Assembly: GCA_026416375.1 (NCBI GenBank)
Contig: JAOAFI010000045.1
Coordinates: 1-36,060 of the forward strand
Source of the DNA: Patescibacteria group bacterium
Lineage (GTDB): Bacteria > Patescibacteriota > Microgenomatia > UBA1406 > GWC2-37-13
Direction of reading: 5' to 3'
DNA: 36,060 bases
Both the position numbers and the translations under genes were made by a program. The notes beneath the pieces are model-generated. The model saw only the letters and a list, made by a program, of their open reading frames with translations. It did not search any database and was not told the origin of the DNA. This document shows, in pieces, positions 1 to 5,836 of the stretch. Numbering within the stretch: the first letter of the stretch is position 1; each line of letters begins with the position of its first letter.

Positions 1-592
1 TGCTAGAAGATATTGGAAAGAATATTTTTCTCAATTAGGAGTTAATCAAAATAGAAGAGAAAACAATGAAATACAAAAAACTCTTAATGCTGTTTCAAAA
101 TTTATTAGCGGAATAATTCTAAGATGGATTTTGTATCATAATTTAAGTCCTTATCATGGTTTTTTACATGAACCAACCAATTATCCATCATTAGTATACG
201 ATCTAATGGAACCTTATAGAGGATATTTTGATAAAATTGTTTTTGATATTTATAAAAAAAACATAGATTCATCAAATAATCAAGAAAAAAATCAAACTTT
301 GCTTTTACCTAAATCAATAGAACAAATAAAAGATTTTTTAGATAAAAAAATATATGTTCATTCAACTCGCCAAATAGCTACTTTTCAGGAAATTCTTCAT
401 GGAATAGTTTTAGCTTTAAGAGTTTATTTAAATAAAGAAACAAAAAGATTTATTGTTCCTTTTCCAGAAAAACCAAATGGAGGAAGGCCGATCAATGCTG
501 GATTTAAACTTTATGGACATACTGCTGGAGTTACTGATTTTTGGACTCAAGCAAAGAAAATAAGTCTTGATTTTTTAACAATTCAAGATTAA
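1..592 (+). CDS. cas1: CRISPR-associated endonuclease Cas1, C-terminal part (5' end outside window)
   Basis: This is the 3' part of cas1. The reading frame is open from base 2, so the real start lies left of the window; a TTG at 131 is only an internal codon. Cas1 is the metal-dependent integrase of the Cas1-Cas2 complex that inserts new spacers. The visible protein starts with ARRYW, which in Cas1 follows the catalytic Glu (just off the window). Then come GFLHEP with the catalytic His and SLVYDLMEPYR with the catalytic acidic residue, in the usual Cas1 order. The 3' end runs into the oppositely oriented cas12d and overlaps it by 62 nt. No cas2 or cas4 is visible. The family call is firm; whether the full gene is intact cannot be judged. 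Confidence 0.92.
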   Translation, partial: ARRYWKEYFSQLGVNQNRRENNEIQKTLNAVSKFISGIILRWILYHNLSPYHGFLHEPTNYPSLVYDLMEPYRGYFDKIVFDIYKKNIDSSNNQEKNQTLLLPKSIEQIKDFLDKKIYVHSTRQIATFQEILHGIVLALRVYLNKETKRFIVPFPEKPNGGRPINAGFKLYGHTAGVTDFWTQAKKISLDFLTIQD

Positions 593-3500
593 TTTTTTTA
601 TTGTTTAGATAATTTATGGTTTCTTCAAAAATATTTAAATCTTTTCTATCTTTAAAAATATCTTTTATAAAACCTCTAATTGACATAATAAAAGCAGCCT
701 GAAGATCAGCATCAAAGACATGACCGCAATCTTTAAAAGGACAAACAAATACAGCTGAATTTCCTCTTTCTTTTTTTATTTTTTTAAGAATTTTTTTATT
801 TAATTTTTTAAAAGAAATTAAAACTTCGCTTTTTTCAAGAGGTGGACGAGTGAAACTTTTAATTATTTTTATAAATTCATTTTTTGATTCTTTAGTTTTT
901 TCAAATTGATAATTTTCTATAAATTTATTATCTCTTGTATATCCATAAATAATTCCATAATTAGTTTTTATTTCAATTATATTTTTTATATTGTTACTAT
1001 TTAGTTTTTTTAAAACAAGAATATTATCTTTTTCAAAATTTTCGAATAAAGAATATATGCTTTTACCACAAGCAGAACAAGTATAACTTGAACCATAAGC
1101 TGAAAGATTTTTACCTATTTTTCCTGATTCAAGAAAATCAACTCCCCAAATATGTTTAATAACTAATTTGTCGGCGTCATTATCGGGGATTGTGTCGGAT
1201 TTTTTTATTGAATCATAAATCTTAGTAATTCTGCCACTTCCAGTTTCAAAATTACTAATCGAATATTCGTATATTATTGGTGATTGATATTTAATATATA
1301 AATTATGAATTTTATTTCTTATTTCGTTTATTGAATTTTCTCTTATTTCTTGAAGAATTGATGTTGATGATAAAAATAATCCTTTTTTGGCTCTTTCTTG
1401 AATTTTATGATAATGATCTTTTATTTTTCTTATATTTTTACTTTTTATGTAATTAGCTTCAATTATTTTTGGATTTTGTTGAGAAAAATCAGTTAAGCAA
1501 TAAGCTATTCCATACTCTCCAGCATCAATGCCTAAATAAAGTTTATGATTAATAAATTGATTTATTTTGATTTCATTTTCTTTTACTTGTATATTAAAAG
1601 GAATTGAAATAAAAATTTTTTTGTCTTTTACCTCAAAATTTATTTGGTTTTTTTCAATATCAAAATTTATTTTATTTTTAACTTCTAAAATAAAAGAAGG
1701 TTCAGATATTGATATTTTTATATTTTGCCAATTTTTGGGTCTGTATATTAATTTTTCTAAAAATTGAATCTGATAAAATGAAGACGATATCTTGAAAATT
1801 AAATCTTCATTAATTTTTTCTATTTTTATAGGAAATATCATTTCTTTATCTATTAAAAAATAAGAAGTTTTTTCTTCAGGATTTTTGATTTTTTTATATA
1901 CAAAATCATTATCTAAAATAACAAAATAATGATGATTTTTATTTATTACTTTTTTATTATTAATTATTAATTCTCTATAACTTATTTGATCATTTAAAAA
2001 TTTAATAATAATAGGAAATTTTTCTTGACTTTTTATAATTTGAAGAGTGTATTTATTTGTTTCAAATTTTTTAGAGTAAATATTAAGTGTTCCTTTTAAA
2101 TCAGAAAAAAAATATTGATTAATTATTTTATTAAATTCTTCATTATTATAAGATTCTTTTTTTTGAGTATTAATAAAAGAAATAACTTTTTCAAAGTTTT
2201 TAAATTTATCTTTTCCAATGTTAAATAATTTTTTTTGACTGTTTTCAATAAAAAAAGATATAAGGGATTTTGAAATTTCTAAATATTCAAGAGCTATTAT
2301 TGGATTGTGATAAAAATTTTTATTTTGATTTGATAATTCTTTAAGCAAAAAATAAAAATCATATAAAAAATCTTTTATTGAGTTTTGTTTTTCTATGTTT
2401 TCAACTGTTTTTATAATTTTTTTATTTTGTTTTTCATAGGAGTTTTTATAAAAAGCATATTTATCTGGTTTTTCAAATATTTTATCTATATTTTGATCTT
2501 TGTTTATATATTTTTTTAAAATTTTCTTATATTCTTTTACTAAATAATTTGAAGTTATTGTTTTTTTTGCTAATTTATCAAAAAAAAGATCAAGAAGTTC
2601 ATATATATTTTTTTTATAATTTGATGATTTTAAATTATTAAATTCTTCTAATAATTCTTTTACTATTTCAAAACCATTTTTTATTTTTAAACCTGTAAGG
2701 TTAATTATTTTTTCTAGGAATTCTTTTTTTGATTGACCATAAAAATTTATTGGCTTTTCAATTTTTTTAAATAAAAATCCAAAAATTTTATTATTTTTTA
2801 TTTGATCTTCTTCATTTTTTTTAAGATATTTTTGAAAATAATAATTAACATTTGTTTTTATTTCTGATAAATAATCTGAAAAAATAGGAAATTTTTGGGT
2901 ATTTTCAAAAATATCTTCATTTTTATCTATTAATTCTTTTAATGAATTTGATATTGATAATATTTTTAATTCTTCTTTTATTCTTAAATTTTCAATATTG
3001 ATATTATTATTTTGTTTTTTTAAATTATCAATTAATTTTTCTAAGCCTTCTTTGAAATTTTTATAATTTTCTTTTGATTTAATTATTCTATTTATATAGT
3101 TTGAATACCAACTTTGAATTTTACCTCCAAAAATAGAGCGATATTCTTGCCAATTTTGATTTATAAATAAAGGTTTTCCTAAATTTTTTGCTTTTTTTGA
3201 AAGAAAAATTAAAGCTTGTTTTATTTTTTCTATTTCTAAAGAATCTAAATTTACTATTTCTAAATAAGCATTTATAATATCATCATATTTTTCTTCTAAT
3301 AAAAAATTAAAAAAAATATTTAGATAATTTGATAAAGAATTAAAGTTATTGCCTAAACCTATTAAAGATTCAGTTATTTTATATTTATTATTATTATTAT
3401 TAATTTTTTCTAAAAATTCTTTAGCTAATTTTATTCTTAAATTTATTAATTCTTCTAATGTTATTTGTTCATTTATTTTTATTAATTCAGGGATGATAAA

Positions 3501-4166
3501 ATTTGTAATTTCTCCTATTTTGTTTTCACCCTCTTTTTTTAATAAATTTTTATCTATATTAAAATTTTCTTTCCAAAATTTATTTTGTTCGTTAGTTGTT
3601 TCTAAAATAAGACTCCCTTTTTCATCATAAAAAGAATTAATTATTAAATCAATAATTGATTTTGCTTCATTATTTAAAATTTTTTTTGACTTTTTATCTA
3701 TATAATTATCTTTTAATATATTTATTAAAAGATTTAAAAATCCTTGTTTTGATGATCCTGATCTTTTTGAATCGGAGAGAATGATTTTTTCAATAAATTC
3801 TCTTTTTTTAAAATATGTTTTTATTTTTTCATTAGAATTATCAAAAATTTTTTCTGCCGTTGTTTTTTCGTTTCTAATTATTTTTATAAGATCAACAAGT
3901 GTTTTTGATGTTGGTTGAAATATTATTCCTGCCTTAAGCGAATCAACCCAAAAATCTAAAAGACTATAATTTTTTTTGTTTTTATAAAAATCTATAATAT
4001 TACTTATTCCTCTGGTTTTTTGATCGTCGTTAATGAAATTATTAAAAATAAAATTATAATTATTTTCTTGATTTTTTTCGTAAGAAGTTAAAGGATATTT
4101 TATAGTTCTTATTATTTTTCCTTTAGTTTTCTTAATTCTTTCTATATGAATTTTATAACCTTTCAT
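531..4166 (-). CDS. cas12d: CRISPR RNA-guided nuclease Cas12d (CasY), type V-D effector
   Basis: A 1211-aa protein whose length fits Cas12d. The N-terminus (KGYKIH, IRTIKYPL, YSLLDFWVDSLKAGII) and the motif YEYSISNFETGSGR closely resemble CasY proteins as I remember them. A split RuvC nuclease lies in the C-terminal third: RuvC-I with Asp881 (LGIDAGEYGIAY), RuvC-II with Glu967 (IIYEYS) and RuvC-III with Asp1154 (FDADLQAAF). Between II and III sit CSACGK and CPFKDCGH, a probable zinc-binding pair. All three catalytic acids are present, so it should be an active DNA nuclease guided by crRNA plus scoutRNA. The middle part is Lys/Asn/Ile-rich, like the rest of this AT-rich genome. Translation starts about 12 nt after a structured leader RNA, with no Shine-Dalgarno sequence. 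The last codons overlap the end of convergent cas1. The array that would supply crRNA is not in the window. Confidence 0.95.
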   Translation of the reverse strand: MKGYKIHIERIKKTKGKIIRTIKYPLTSYEKNQENNYNFIFNNFINDDQKTRGISNIIDFYKNKKNYSLLDFWVDSLKAGIIFQPTSKTLVDLIKIIRNEKTTAEKIFDNSNEKIKTYFKKREFIEKIILSDSKRSGSSKQGFLNLLINILKDNYIDKKSKKILNNEAKSIIDLIINSFYDEKGSLILETTNEQNKFWKENFNIDKNLLKKEGENKIGEITNFIIPELIKINEQITLEELINLRIKLAKEFLEKINNNNNKYKITESLIGLGNNFNSLSNYLNIFFNFLLEEKYDDIINAYLEIVNLDSLEIEKIKQALIFLSKKAKNLGKPLFINQNWQEYRSIFGGKIQSWYSNYINRIIKSKENYKNFKEGLEKLIDNLKKQNNNINIENLRIKEELKILSISNSLKELIDKNEDIFENTQKFPIFSDYLSEIKTNVNYYFQKYLKKNEEDQIKNNKIFGFLFKKIEKPINFYGQSKKEFLEKIINLTGLKIKNGFEIVKELLEEFNNLKSSNYKKNIYELLDLFFDKLAKKTITSNYLVKEYKKILKKYINKDQNIDKIFEKPDKYAFYKNSYEKQNKKIIKTVENIEKQNSIKDFLYDFYFLLKELSNQNKNFYHNPIIALEYLEISKSLISFFIENSQKKLFNIGKDKFKNFEKVISFINTQKKESYNNEEFNKIINQYFFSDLKGTLNIYSKKFETNKYTLQIIKSQEKFPIIIKFLNDQISYRELIINNKKVINKNHHYFVILDNDFVYKKIKNPEEKTSYFLIDKEMIFPIKIEKINEDLIFKISSSFYQIQFLEKLIYRPKNWQNIKISISEPSFILEVKNKINFDIEKNQINFEVKDKKIFISIPFNIQVKENEIKINQFINHKLYLGIDAGEYGIAYCLTDFSQQNPKIIEANYIKSKNIRKIKDHYHKIQERAKKGLFLSSTSILQEIRENSINEIRNKIHNLYIKYQSPIIYEYSISNFETGSGRITKIYDSIKKSDTIPDNDADKLVIKHIWGVDFLESGKIGKNLSAYGSSYTCSACGKSIYSLFENFEKDNILVLKKLNSNNIKNIIEIKTNYGIIYGYTRDNKFIENYQFEKTKESKNEFIKIIKSFTRPPLEKSEVLISFKKLNKKILKKIKKERGNSAVFVCPFKDCGHVFDADLQAAFIMSIRGFIKDIFKDRKDLNIFEETINYLNNKKINLELLKNQDLFSLLESKNQ

Positions 4167-4174
4167 TTTTATTT

Positions 4175-4274
4175 GATGCGCTCAGGCAGTAAAGACTTTT
4201 AAAGTCTAAAGGCAACCTCAAAATTAAATAATTTTGAGGGGAAAACCACCTGAGCGCTTGGGTTAGGGACCCAA
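4175..4274 (-). ncRNA. Probable Cas12d scoutRNA, also forming the cas12d 5' leader
   Basis: A roughly 100-nt region between cas12d and its promoter folds strongly. Reading the minus strand: a 5' hairpin (TTGGGT/ACCCAA, 4274-4258) is followed by a closing stem of nine pairs (GCGCTCAGG at 4257-4249 with CCTGAGCGC at 4186-4178 as cited from the plus strand ends). This closing stem encloses a 10-bp hairpin (4239-4216, four-base loop) and a short AGACTT/AAGTCT hairpin (4207-4193), giving a three-way junction. The unpaired junction segment at 4213-4209 reads GCCTT. Published Cas12d repeats, as I recall them, end in AAGGC, its exact complement, and scoutRNAs of Cas12d carry an essential conserved five-base segment. 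Position next to cas12d, own promoter, fold and this segment together support a scoutRNA. No terminator separates it from the cas12d start, so read-through would make it the mRNA leader. A plain regulatory leader is the main alternative. Confidence 0.75.
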
Positions 4275-4278
4275 ATAA

Positions 4279-4307
4279 AATATATAAAATTTATCTTCAT
4301 ATGTCAA
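4279..4307 (-). promoter_or_regulatory. Promoter for scoutRNA/cas12d
   Basis: On the minus strand TTGACA (4307-4302) and TATATT (4284-4279) are separated by 17 nt, a near-consensus housekeeping sigma promoter. The predicted transcript start is near 4272, at the beginning of the folded RNA, so the RNA is transcribed in the cas12d direction. Confidence 0.75.
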
Positions 4308-4357: not shown

Positions 4358-4385
4358 TTGACAAATGGAAAAAATATAGAATAAT
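4358..4385 (+). promoter_or_regulatory. Promoter for the ATP-grasp gene pair
   Basis: TTGACA at 4358-4363 is followed after 16 nt by AATAAT at 4380-4385. This gives a 5' UTR of about 17 nt before the ATG at 4409. It is divergent from the scoutRNA/cas12d promoter; about 50 AT-rich bases with no other visible feature lie between them. Confidence 0.6.
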
Positions 4386-4408: not shown

Positions 4409-5836
4409 ATGAAAAAAAACACTTCAAAAAAGAAACAAAAAAAACCACCATTAGGAAATGGAAAAAATAATGAAATAATTGTCTACATATTTAATGTTGT
4501 TGAAGATGAATGGTCTTTTTTATCAACAGTCCAACCTATTGAAAAAAGATATGAAAAAATAAATAGTAGCAATATGGCAGCTGAATGTTATTTGTTTGCC
4601 AATGCTTCTGCTGATAATTTTTTTTATATCTCACCTATTGAAATTCCTGAAAATTTTAAAAATTATTTTTTAGAGGTAGTTGGTAAAAAAAATTTTGAAA
4701 TTTTTGTTCCTCAGATGAAAACTGGACTTATTTGTAAAGATTTATATACTGATAAATCATTATTTTCTGATTTGATAAATAAATTAAGAAGATATGAAAA
4801 AATAAAATTAATAAGTTATGCTGTTTCTCCTGAATTTTTAGAATTAAAAGAAAGATTAATCCAATTAGGATTAAATGTTATTACTCCTGAAGCTCCTGAT
4901 TTAGAAAATGCTTGGACAGTTAATTTTTATGGAAGTAAATCTGGTATAAGACAATTGGCTCAACAAAGTAAAGCTGATGAACCTGATTTTATTATGCCTG
5001 AAGGAATTATCTGTGTTGGCAGACTTGATGCAGCAAAAATTGCTGCTAATACTTATCTTAATGATAAAGGAGTAGTTTTAAAAACAAATAAAGGATCAGG
5101 AGGAGATGGAGTTTTAATTTTTAGAGAAGGAGAACTTCCAAATGATTATAAAATGTGTGAAAAAAGAATTTATGAACTTTTATCAGAAGATGGATATTGG
5201 GAAAGATATCCGATAATTATTGAAAAATTAATTAATGTTGATTATCGCTCATTTGGAGCTTTTCCAAATATAGAATTTAAAATTCATAGAAATGGCAAAA
5301 TTGAAATGCTTTATTATTGCGTAATGATGGTAACAAAAGAAGGTAAATATTATGGACTTGATATTCATGAGGATGTTTTAAATGAAAGAATTGCTACTCG
5401 TATTACTGATACAGGTTATTATATTGCGGAAAAATATGCAGAAGAAGGATACAGAGGGCATTTTGATGTAGATATGATTTCTGCGAAAGGCGGAAAAATA
5501 TATGTTTCAGAATCAAATACAAGAAATACTGGTGGGACTGATATATATAAATTAACAAAATATCTTTTTGGAGACGATTTTTTTTCTGATGTTTATGTAT
5601 TAAATAGAAATAATTATAAATTTAAAACTAAAAAAAATTATTTAACTTTTGAAAAAATTTTAGAGATAACAAAACCAATTTTATTTAATAAAAAAACTAA
5701 AGAAGGATTGGTTATTTCTTCATCCATTTCTATTATTGAAAATAAAAAACTTCTTTATACAATATATGGAAAAAATAAAAAAAGAGCTTATCAATTAGAA
5801 CAAGAACTTTTTAAACTTTTAGAAAAAATTAATTAA
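4409..5836 (+). CDS. ATP-grasp ligase, PGM1-like
   Basis: 475 aa. The protein starts with a Lys-rich tail, then a pre-ATP-grasp-like region, then an ATP-grasp core. Visible core features are a Gly-rich loop (TNKGSGGDGVLIF), a strand with PIIIEKL, and the metal-binding end GHFDVDMI followed by ESNTRNTGGT (the Glu-x-Asn type pair that binds Mg-ATP). ATP-grasp enzymes activate a carboxylate as acyl phosphate and join it to an amine or thiol. The pattern resembles peptide ligases of the PGM1 group, but the substrate is unknown. No signal peptide is seen. The next gene, also an ATP-grasp ligase, starts on the base after this stop codon, so the two are almost certainly co-translated and may act in one pathway. 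Family call good, function open. Confidence 0.75.
   Translation: MKKNTSKKKQKKPPLGNGKNNEIIVYIFNVVEDEWSFLSTVQPIEKRYEKINSSNMAAECYLFANASADNFFYISPIEIPENFKNYFLEVVGKKNFEIFVPQMKTGLICKDLYTDKSLFSDLINKLRRYEKIKLISYAVSPEFLELKERLIQLGLNVITPEAPDLENAWTVNFYGSKSGIRQLAQQSKADEPDFIMPEGIICVGRLDAAKIAANTYLNDKGVVLKTNKGSGGDGVLIFREGELPNDYKMCEKRIYELLSEDGYWERYPIIIEKLINVDYRSFGAFPNIEFKIHRNGKIEMLYYCVMMVTKEGKYYGLDIHEDVLNERIATRITDTGYYIAEKYAEEGYRGHFDVDMISAKGGKIYVSESNTRNTGGTDIYKLTKYLFGDDFFSDVYVLNRNNYKFKTKKNYLTFEKILEITKPILFNKKTKEGLVISSSISIIENKKLLYTIYGKNKKRAYQLEQELFKLLEKIN

Follow-up and report, generated by a model that had tools for sequence, protein, structure and literature searches.

We suggest that the structured RNA encoded directly ahead of cas12d (positions 4272–4178, minus strand) is very probably the second RNA, in addition to the guide, on which Cas12d depends. 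Judging from comparison across cas12d loci, we put at close to 0.9 the probability that it is a trans-acting guide-RNA cofactor of Cas12d, expressed from its own promoter and contacting the CRISPR repeat in two places, one a five-base dock in the body of the RNA and the other a 9-nt anti-repeat at its 5' end. The name scoutRNA stands for repeat complementarity of 3–5 nt, as cited in PMC9522604. Because the second anti-repeat extends over 9–12 nt in the loci that carry it, the RNA counts in this sense as a tracrRNA, and we name it here the Cas12d guide-RNA cofactor (scoutRNA/tracrRNA).

The cas12d locus and its array

The window, by which we mean the whole stretch of DNA analysed, is the entire contig C2 (36,060 bases) of a 764-kb genome. 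Its cas12d gene (CasY; 531–4166, minus strand, start ATG at 4166) encodes a product of 1211 aa that matches NF033951 with 1140 bits (cut-off 250) and the PADLOC Cas12d model with E = 9e-117, and the RuvC-like acidic residues D881, E967 and D1152/D1154 are kept across nine relatives; the locus has the effector of type V-D. The C-terminal part of cas1 (2–592, plus strand; Pfam Cas_Cas1) is truncated by the contig end, and the array beyond it lies on contig C18, at that contig's end. In G018, a genome of the same genus, the two genes of the C18 end are followed by the array, cas1, cas12d, the RNA and then the genes of the window, and this synteny shows that C18 and C2 come from either side of a single locus, with the break between the contigs at or near the array.

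The original prediction had expected an array to the left of the window with a repeat ending in AAGGC, and such an array is what the C18 end holds. Its repeat, CGCCGAAAGTTAGGGACAAAAAGGC, is 25 nt long with a period of 43–44, giving the short repeat-spacer units of type V-D, and it ends in AAGGC (AAAAAGGC), so that the predicted complementarity of the junction GCCTT holds for the genome's own repeat. One spacer, CTTTCTCAGTTTTAGGAG, occurs twice in a five-repeat stretch at the contig end (G000:C18:42867-43058; L027 12867-13059), which hints that part of the array has collapsed in the assembly.

In family searches, ten more genomes proved to carry Cas12d; a single-protein search of genome contigs gave no match. 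A scan with alignment queries returned 22 named Cas12d loci, mostly from Patescibacteria, plus two records, one cyanobacterial and the other propionibacterial; none was found among the viral contigs and plasmids searched. The cyanobacterial locus (L048 3668-3850, Cyanobacteria REEB446) is Cas12d-like and lies outside Patescibacteria, and its array ends with a last repeat followed by an inverted copy of that repeat's own 3' half (GCCTTGTTCTCCC), together a perfect 13-bp hairpin. The propionibacterial one (L049 3380-4902, Propionibacteriaceae TD116_bin66, an actinobacterial bin) has a Cas12d-like protein and a 36-repeat array (CCCCGGTTCATGGAGGTCAAAAGGC), with no helper RNA located in it, and could reflect horizontal transfer or a binning error. 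In G010 (L007/L020, KatS3mg092) cas12d is split into two frames by a stop and a frame change at about residue 900, with the RNA and a 30-repeat array intact; this recalls the fragmented CasY described by Chen et al. 2019 (PMC6509639).

Structure and conservation of the RNA

The 126-nt segment containing the RNA folds with an MFE of -43.5 kcal/mol (z = -7.7 against dinucleotide shuffles), and none of 200 such shuffles folded as well. Read on the minus strand, to which all of the following elements belong, the RNA begins with a 5' hairpin (GGGUCCCUAACCC, 4260–4272) whose loop presents the anti-repeat (4262–4270), followed by the 5' strand of stem 1 (GCGCUCAGGUGGU, 4245–4257), the stem 2 hairpin (4216–4239), the dock GCCUU (4209–4213; 6 bp when position 4208 is included), the stem 3 hairpin (4193–4207) and the 3' strand of stem 1 (ACUGCCUGAGCGC, 4178–4190). 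The three-way junction of the original prediction is thus part of the window's MFE structure, but it is no feature of the family, as stem 3 is missing from G023 and G053 and the junction is therefore not essential. No Rfam family matches the region.

Stem 1 closes just before the cas12d ATG, as predicted, with its 3' end at 4178 rather than 4175 and 11 nt between it and the ATG at 4166, and no terminator was found in this interval, again in line with the original prediction. Stem 2 scores as terminator-like, but its tail, TTGCCTTT, carries the conserved dock, and we rejected it as a terminator. We also rejected a reading of the same DNA on the plus strand: since hairpins are mirrored on the opposite strand, it folds almost as stably there (-40.9), yet the promoter, the sense of the motif and the gene order all favour the minus strand.

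The claimed promoter TTGACA-17-TATATT was recovered at 4307–4279 of that strand, with its -35 box at 4302–4307 and its -10 box at 4279–4284, 17 nt further on, giving a predicted RNA start at about 4272. Promoters of this quality were found twice, against 2.6 expected in shuffles of this AT-rich region, so that the weight of this one comes only from its conserved position in relatives. Of the 11 loci compared, all but G096 have a -10 box with a score of 5 of 6 or better, placed 5–7 nt ahead of the anti-repeat segment, so that transcription should start at the anti-repeat itself. A promoter-like site TTGACA-16-AATAAT on the plus strand (4358–4385) points away from the RNA and precedes an ATP-grasp gene at 4409.

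The same RNA recurs upstream of cas12d in seven further Microgenomatia-type loci and in three from Dojkabacteria. When a covariance model was trained on three close loci (the window, G010 and G018), it matched G023, G053, G373 and G409, always upstream of cas12d, with E-values of about 2e-8 to 2e-7. Scanned across 96 whole relatives, it matched only genomes with cas12d, and no orphan copies of the RNA were detected by the model in relatives that lack the gene. A structured non-coding RNA is in this sense a conserved part of the cas12d locus. Compensated changes occur at several pairs of stem 1, and five compensated pairs in three loci support stem 2; the counts for stem 1 were made on hand-cut segments, and the model was drawn from three close loci, because a MAFFT alignment of eight of the RNAs misaligned the 3' half.

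GCCTT is present in all 18 loci checked, where it pairs over 5–8 bp with the repeat 3' end and almost always directly follows stem 2; the repeat ends in AAGGC in all loci used. This is the conserved run of five bases, complementary to the crRNA repeat, that characterizes a scoutRNA, and we take it to be the five-base segment of published Cas12d scoutRNAs. As GCCTT also turns up by chance in 8.75% of shuffled leaders, the dock taken alone is weak evidence, and the case rests on comparison. With a matching repeat in its own genome and covariance-model matches confined to cas12d loci, the proposed identity of the RNA as a scoutRNA candidate has gained support from each of the suggested checks that were run. 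Its description as the leader of cas12d applies to the window and is not universal, since the RNA of L044 has the array on one side and cas1 on the other.

The 5' anti-repeat

The dock had been recognized in the original prediction, which missed a stronger contact. The loop of the 5' hairpin and its flanks have the sequence GUCCCUAAC (4270–4262), which is exactly complementary to a mid-repeat segment, GUUAGGGAC. Where relatives carry the repeat GUUAGGAAC, the sequence in the RNA is GUUCCUAAC. The longest perfect match between anti-repeat and repeat is 9–12 nt in all 11 loci of the clade described below, compared with a shuffle mean of ~5 (p = 0.0075 for the window; each of the ten others has p = 0.0025, the lowest value that the test can give). 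When every anti-repeat was set against every repeat, the table was block-diagonal, with long matches only within the own repeat class; as in a tracrRNA, each anti-repeat matches the repeat of its own system.

Across the 11 loci, 89% of cells in the intermolecular pairing are paired and 9 of 12 pairs have changed on both sides, although the loci are related and hold three main repeat variants, so that these co-changes amount to a few events rather than eleven. The covariation score is 0.645, against 0.23 for shuffled and at most 0.19 for slid pairings, in an alignment where the register of the Dojkabacteria rows was set by where the segments had been hand-cut.

A blind test was offered by three Dojkabacteria loci (L015, L032 and L038) without an array on their own contigs. 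Their RNAs begin with CACCACCUAAAU or CACCACCUAAAG after a TATAAT box, and if these 5' ends are read as anti-repeats, the corresponding repeats must hold TAGGTGG shortly before AAGGC. Arrays with TAGGTGGTGAAAAGGC were found in all three genomes, as predicted blind, along with two scattered single matches, whereas a reversed-pattern control in the same genomes gave no match. The repeats are CACCGAATTTAGGTGGTGAAAAGGC and close variants, pairing over 10–12 bp. A similar array search in G655 returned scattered matches only, fewer than the control, and its short contig shows no array; we therefore left G655 unclassified.

The 5' hairpin is modest when free (-6.8 kcal/mol for the 19-mer) in comparison with the duplex that the 9-mer forms with the repeat (-15.5), which makes it plausible that the loop pairs and the hairpin then opens, an order of steps that we infer from these energies.

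Outside the clade the match is not significant in L013, L036, L043 and L046, reaches p = 0.02 in L034 and p = 0.03 in L047, and spans only 6 nt in L044, so that not all Cas12d depend on this contact. In L036 (Parcubacteria), ~110 nt upstream of the main dock and upstream of the core of the RNA, GCCTTTTCTCCC is a 12-nt exact complement of the repeat 3' end, possibly a second or alternative anti-repeat.

Possible origin of the trans contact

In a Cas12d tree rooted at the midpoint only, all sampled loci with a strong anti-repeat (10 rows) form one clade with 100/100 support. Most loci outside it have repeats that fold as a hairpin (-3.4 to -8.1 kcal/mol; weaker in L043), while most repeats inside it have little or no hairpin, and the repeat positions contacted by the anti-repeat correspond to the hairpin's 3' arm in other loci. 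A hairpin in cis seems to have been replaced in the clade by a helix in trans. A strict one-to-one trade between the two was rejected: G698 has both, and L043 has neither strongly.

Where the RNA could be located outside the clade, the array runs towards it. It directly follows the array in L013 and L034 and lies further downstream in L036, L043, L044, L046 and L047. In L034 a degenerate terminal repeat (TCACCGAAATTA), spaced one period beyond the last complete copy, makes up the 5' end of the RNA (ATCACCAAAATT), which can pair over 9 nt with the remaining repeats. The L013 array passes from its terminal repeat into the RNA without a gap, and the AAAGGG of that repeat could serve as the 5' strand of stem 1. 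Together these two arrays suggest that the trans strand comes from the 5' arm of a terminal repeat.

We tentatively propose, on a comparison of sequences that leaves us about evenly divided and if anything slightly on the doubtful side, that one Cas12d clade turned a scoutRNA of short complementarity into a two-contact tracrRNA by this route. The 5' arm of the terminal repeat would have become the 5' end of the RNA and gained a promoter of its own, thereby providing in trans the strand of the helix that in other Cas12d repeats comes from a cis hairpin, after which the repeats' own hairpin may have decayed. L013 and L034, which adjoin the clade, look like intermediates whose scoutRNAs begin in the terminal repeat. 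This proposal draws on few loci, with exceptions such as G698, which keeps both hairpin and anti-repeat.

Alternative explanations and proposed mechanism

It could be argued that the dock alone is functional and that the 5' hairpin is a degenerate remnant of a repeat, or else a hairpin protecting the 5' end as a cap. In favour of this, anti-repeats of tracrRNAs generally derive from repeats, the L034 RNA begins with a degenerate terminal repeat one period past the last one, and the 5' segment does fold as a hairpin by itself. A relic, however, would be expected to drift, whereas each anti-repeat still matches its genome's repeat without a mismatch over 9–12 nt and covaries with it, and the Dojkabacteria segment forms no hairpin and yet remains a 10–12-nt complement. 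We consider this explanation improbable.

We give even less credence to the possibility that the RNA is mainly a regulatory leader, by which Cas12d would bind its own mRNA and repress its translation or processing, with or without a scoutRNA role. The position of the RNA on the same strand, 11 nt before the ATG and with no terminator between, would suit such a leader, and G010 and G018 share the arrangement. The distance to the start codon is much larger in G373 and G409, however, the RNA of L044 is not in front of cas12d at all, and the complementarities to the repeat call for a role in trans.

In the reading that we prefer, of a trans-acting cofactor with two repeat contacts, the RNA would be expressed immediately before cas12d by a promoter of its own, possibly with read-through into the gene. 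The 5' anti-repeat, offered in the hairpin loop, would pair with the middle of the repeat in a 9-bp helix, and the dock, as GCCUUU between stems 2 and 3, would pair with the AAAGGC that abuts the spacer. Both contacts would fix the crRNA on a scaffold of stems 1 and 2, which Cas12d may then bind for target recognition and probably also for processing of the crRNA 3' end. In this model Cas12d would need the RNA for its activity.

Discussion

There is no solved structure to inform guide design for Cas12d: a PDB search returned none for this effector, and Cas12c2 was its only clear sequence match. From the covarying second contact we would expect an efficient single-guide RNA to require the 5' anti-repeat, and scoutRNAs and crRNAs from separate repeat classes to be incompatible. 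The clade, with trans helices where most loci outside it have hairpin repeats, offers a phylogenetic case for the origin of a tracrRNA-type system, and suggests that such systems may arise from ones with a crRNA hairpin.

ScoutRNAs are reportedly known for types V-C and V-D through the work of Harrington et al. in 2020 in Mol Cell, where the V-D one is said to be a non-coding RNA beside cas12d with a conserved five-base segment complementary to the repeat 3' end. The RNA of the window resembles it in adjoining cas12d and in carrying such a segment, and differs from a scoutRNA, a name that denotes short complementarity, by the added 5' anti-repeat of 9 bp (9–12 bp in the clade). No second V-D anti-repeat is described in the literature examined, a partial set that does not include the 2020 study and that, in the excerpts covered, mentions V-D scoutRNAs only in passing.

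The closest parallel is the tracrRNA of the type V-C effector Cas12c2, which according to Kurihara et al. 2022 (PMC9522604) has one repeat:anti-repeat duplex (R:AR-1) 5' of stem 1 and a second (R:AR-2) that corresponds to the dock. In that study the structure overturned an earlier prediction, which had only short complementarity, and the authors argue that the RNA should be named a tracrRNA; our comparison suggests that the V-D "scoutRNA", like the V-C one, is really a tracrRNA. The Cas12c2 tracrRNA shares with the RNA of the window the order of 5' anti-repeat, stem 1, stem 2 and a dock before the 3' strand of stem 1. It differs in that R:AR-1 has 4 bp rather than the 9–12 bp of the Cas12d clade, and in that its stem 3 comes after stem 1, whereas the optional stem 3 of the window RNA lies inside the junction. 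Like the tracrRNAs of types II, V-B and V-E, the Cas12d guide-RNA cofactor is trans-encoded in the cas locus and carries an anti-repeat; unlike theirs, which forms one long duplex, its anti-repeat is divided into two short segments.
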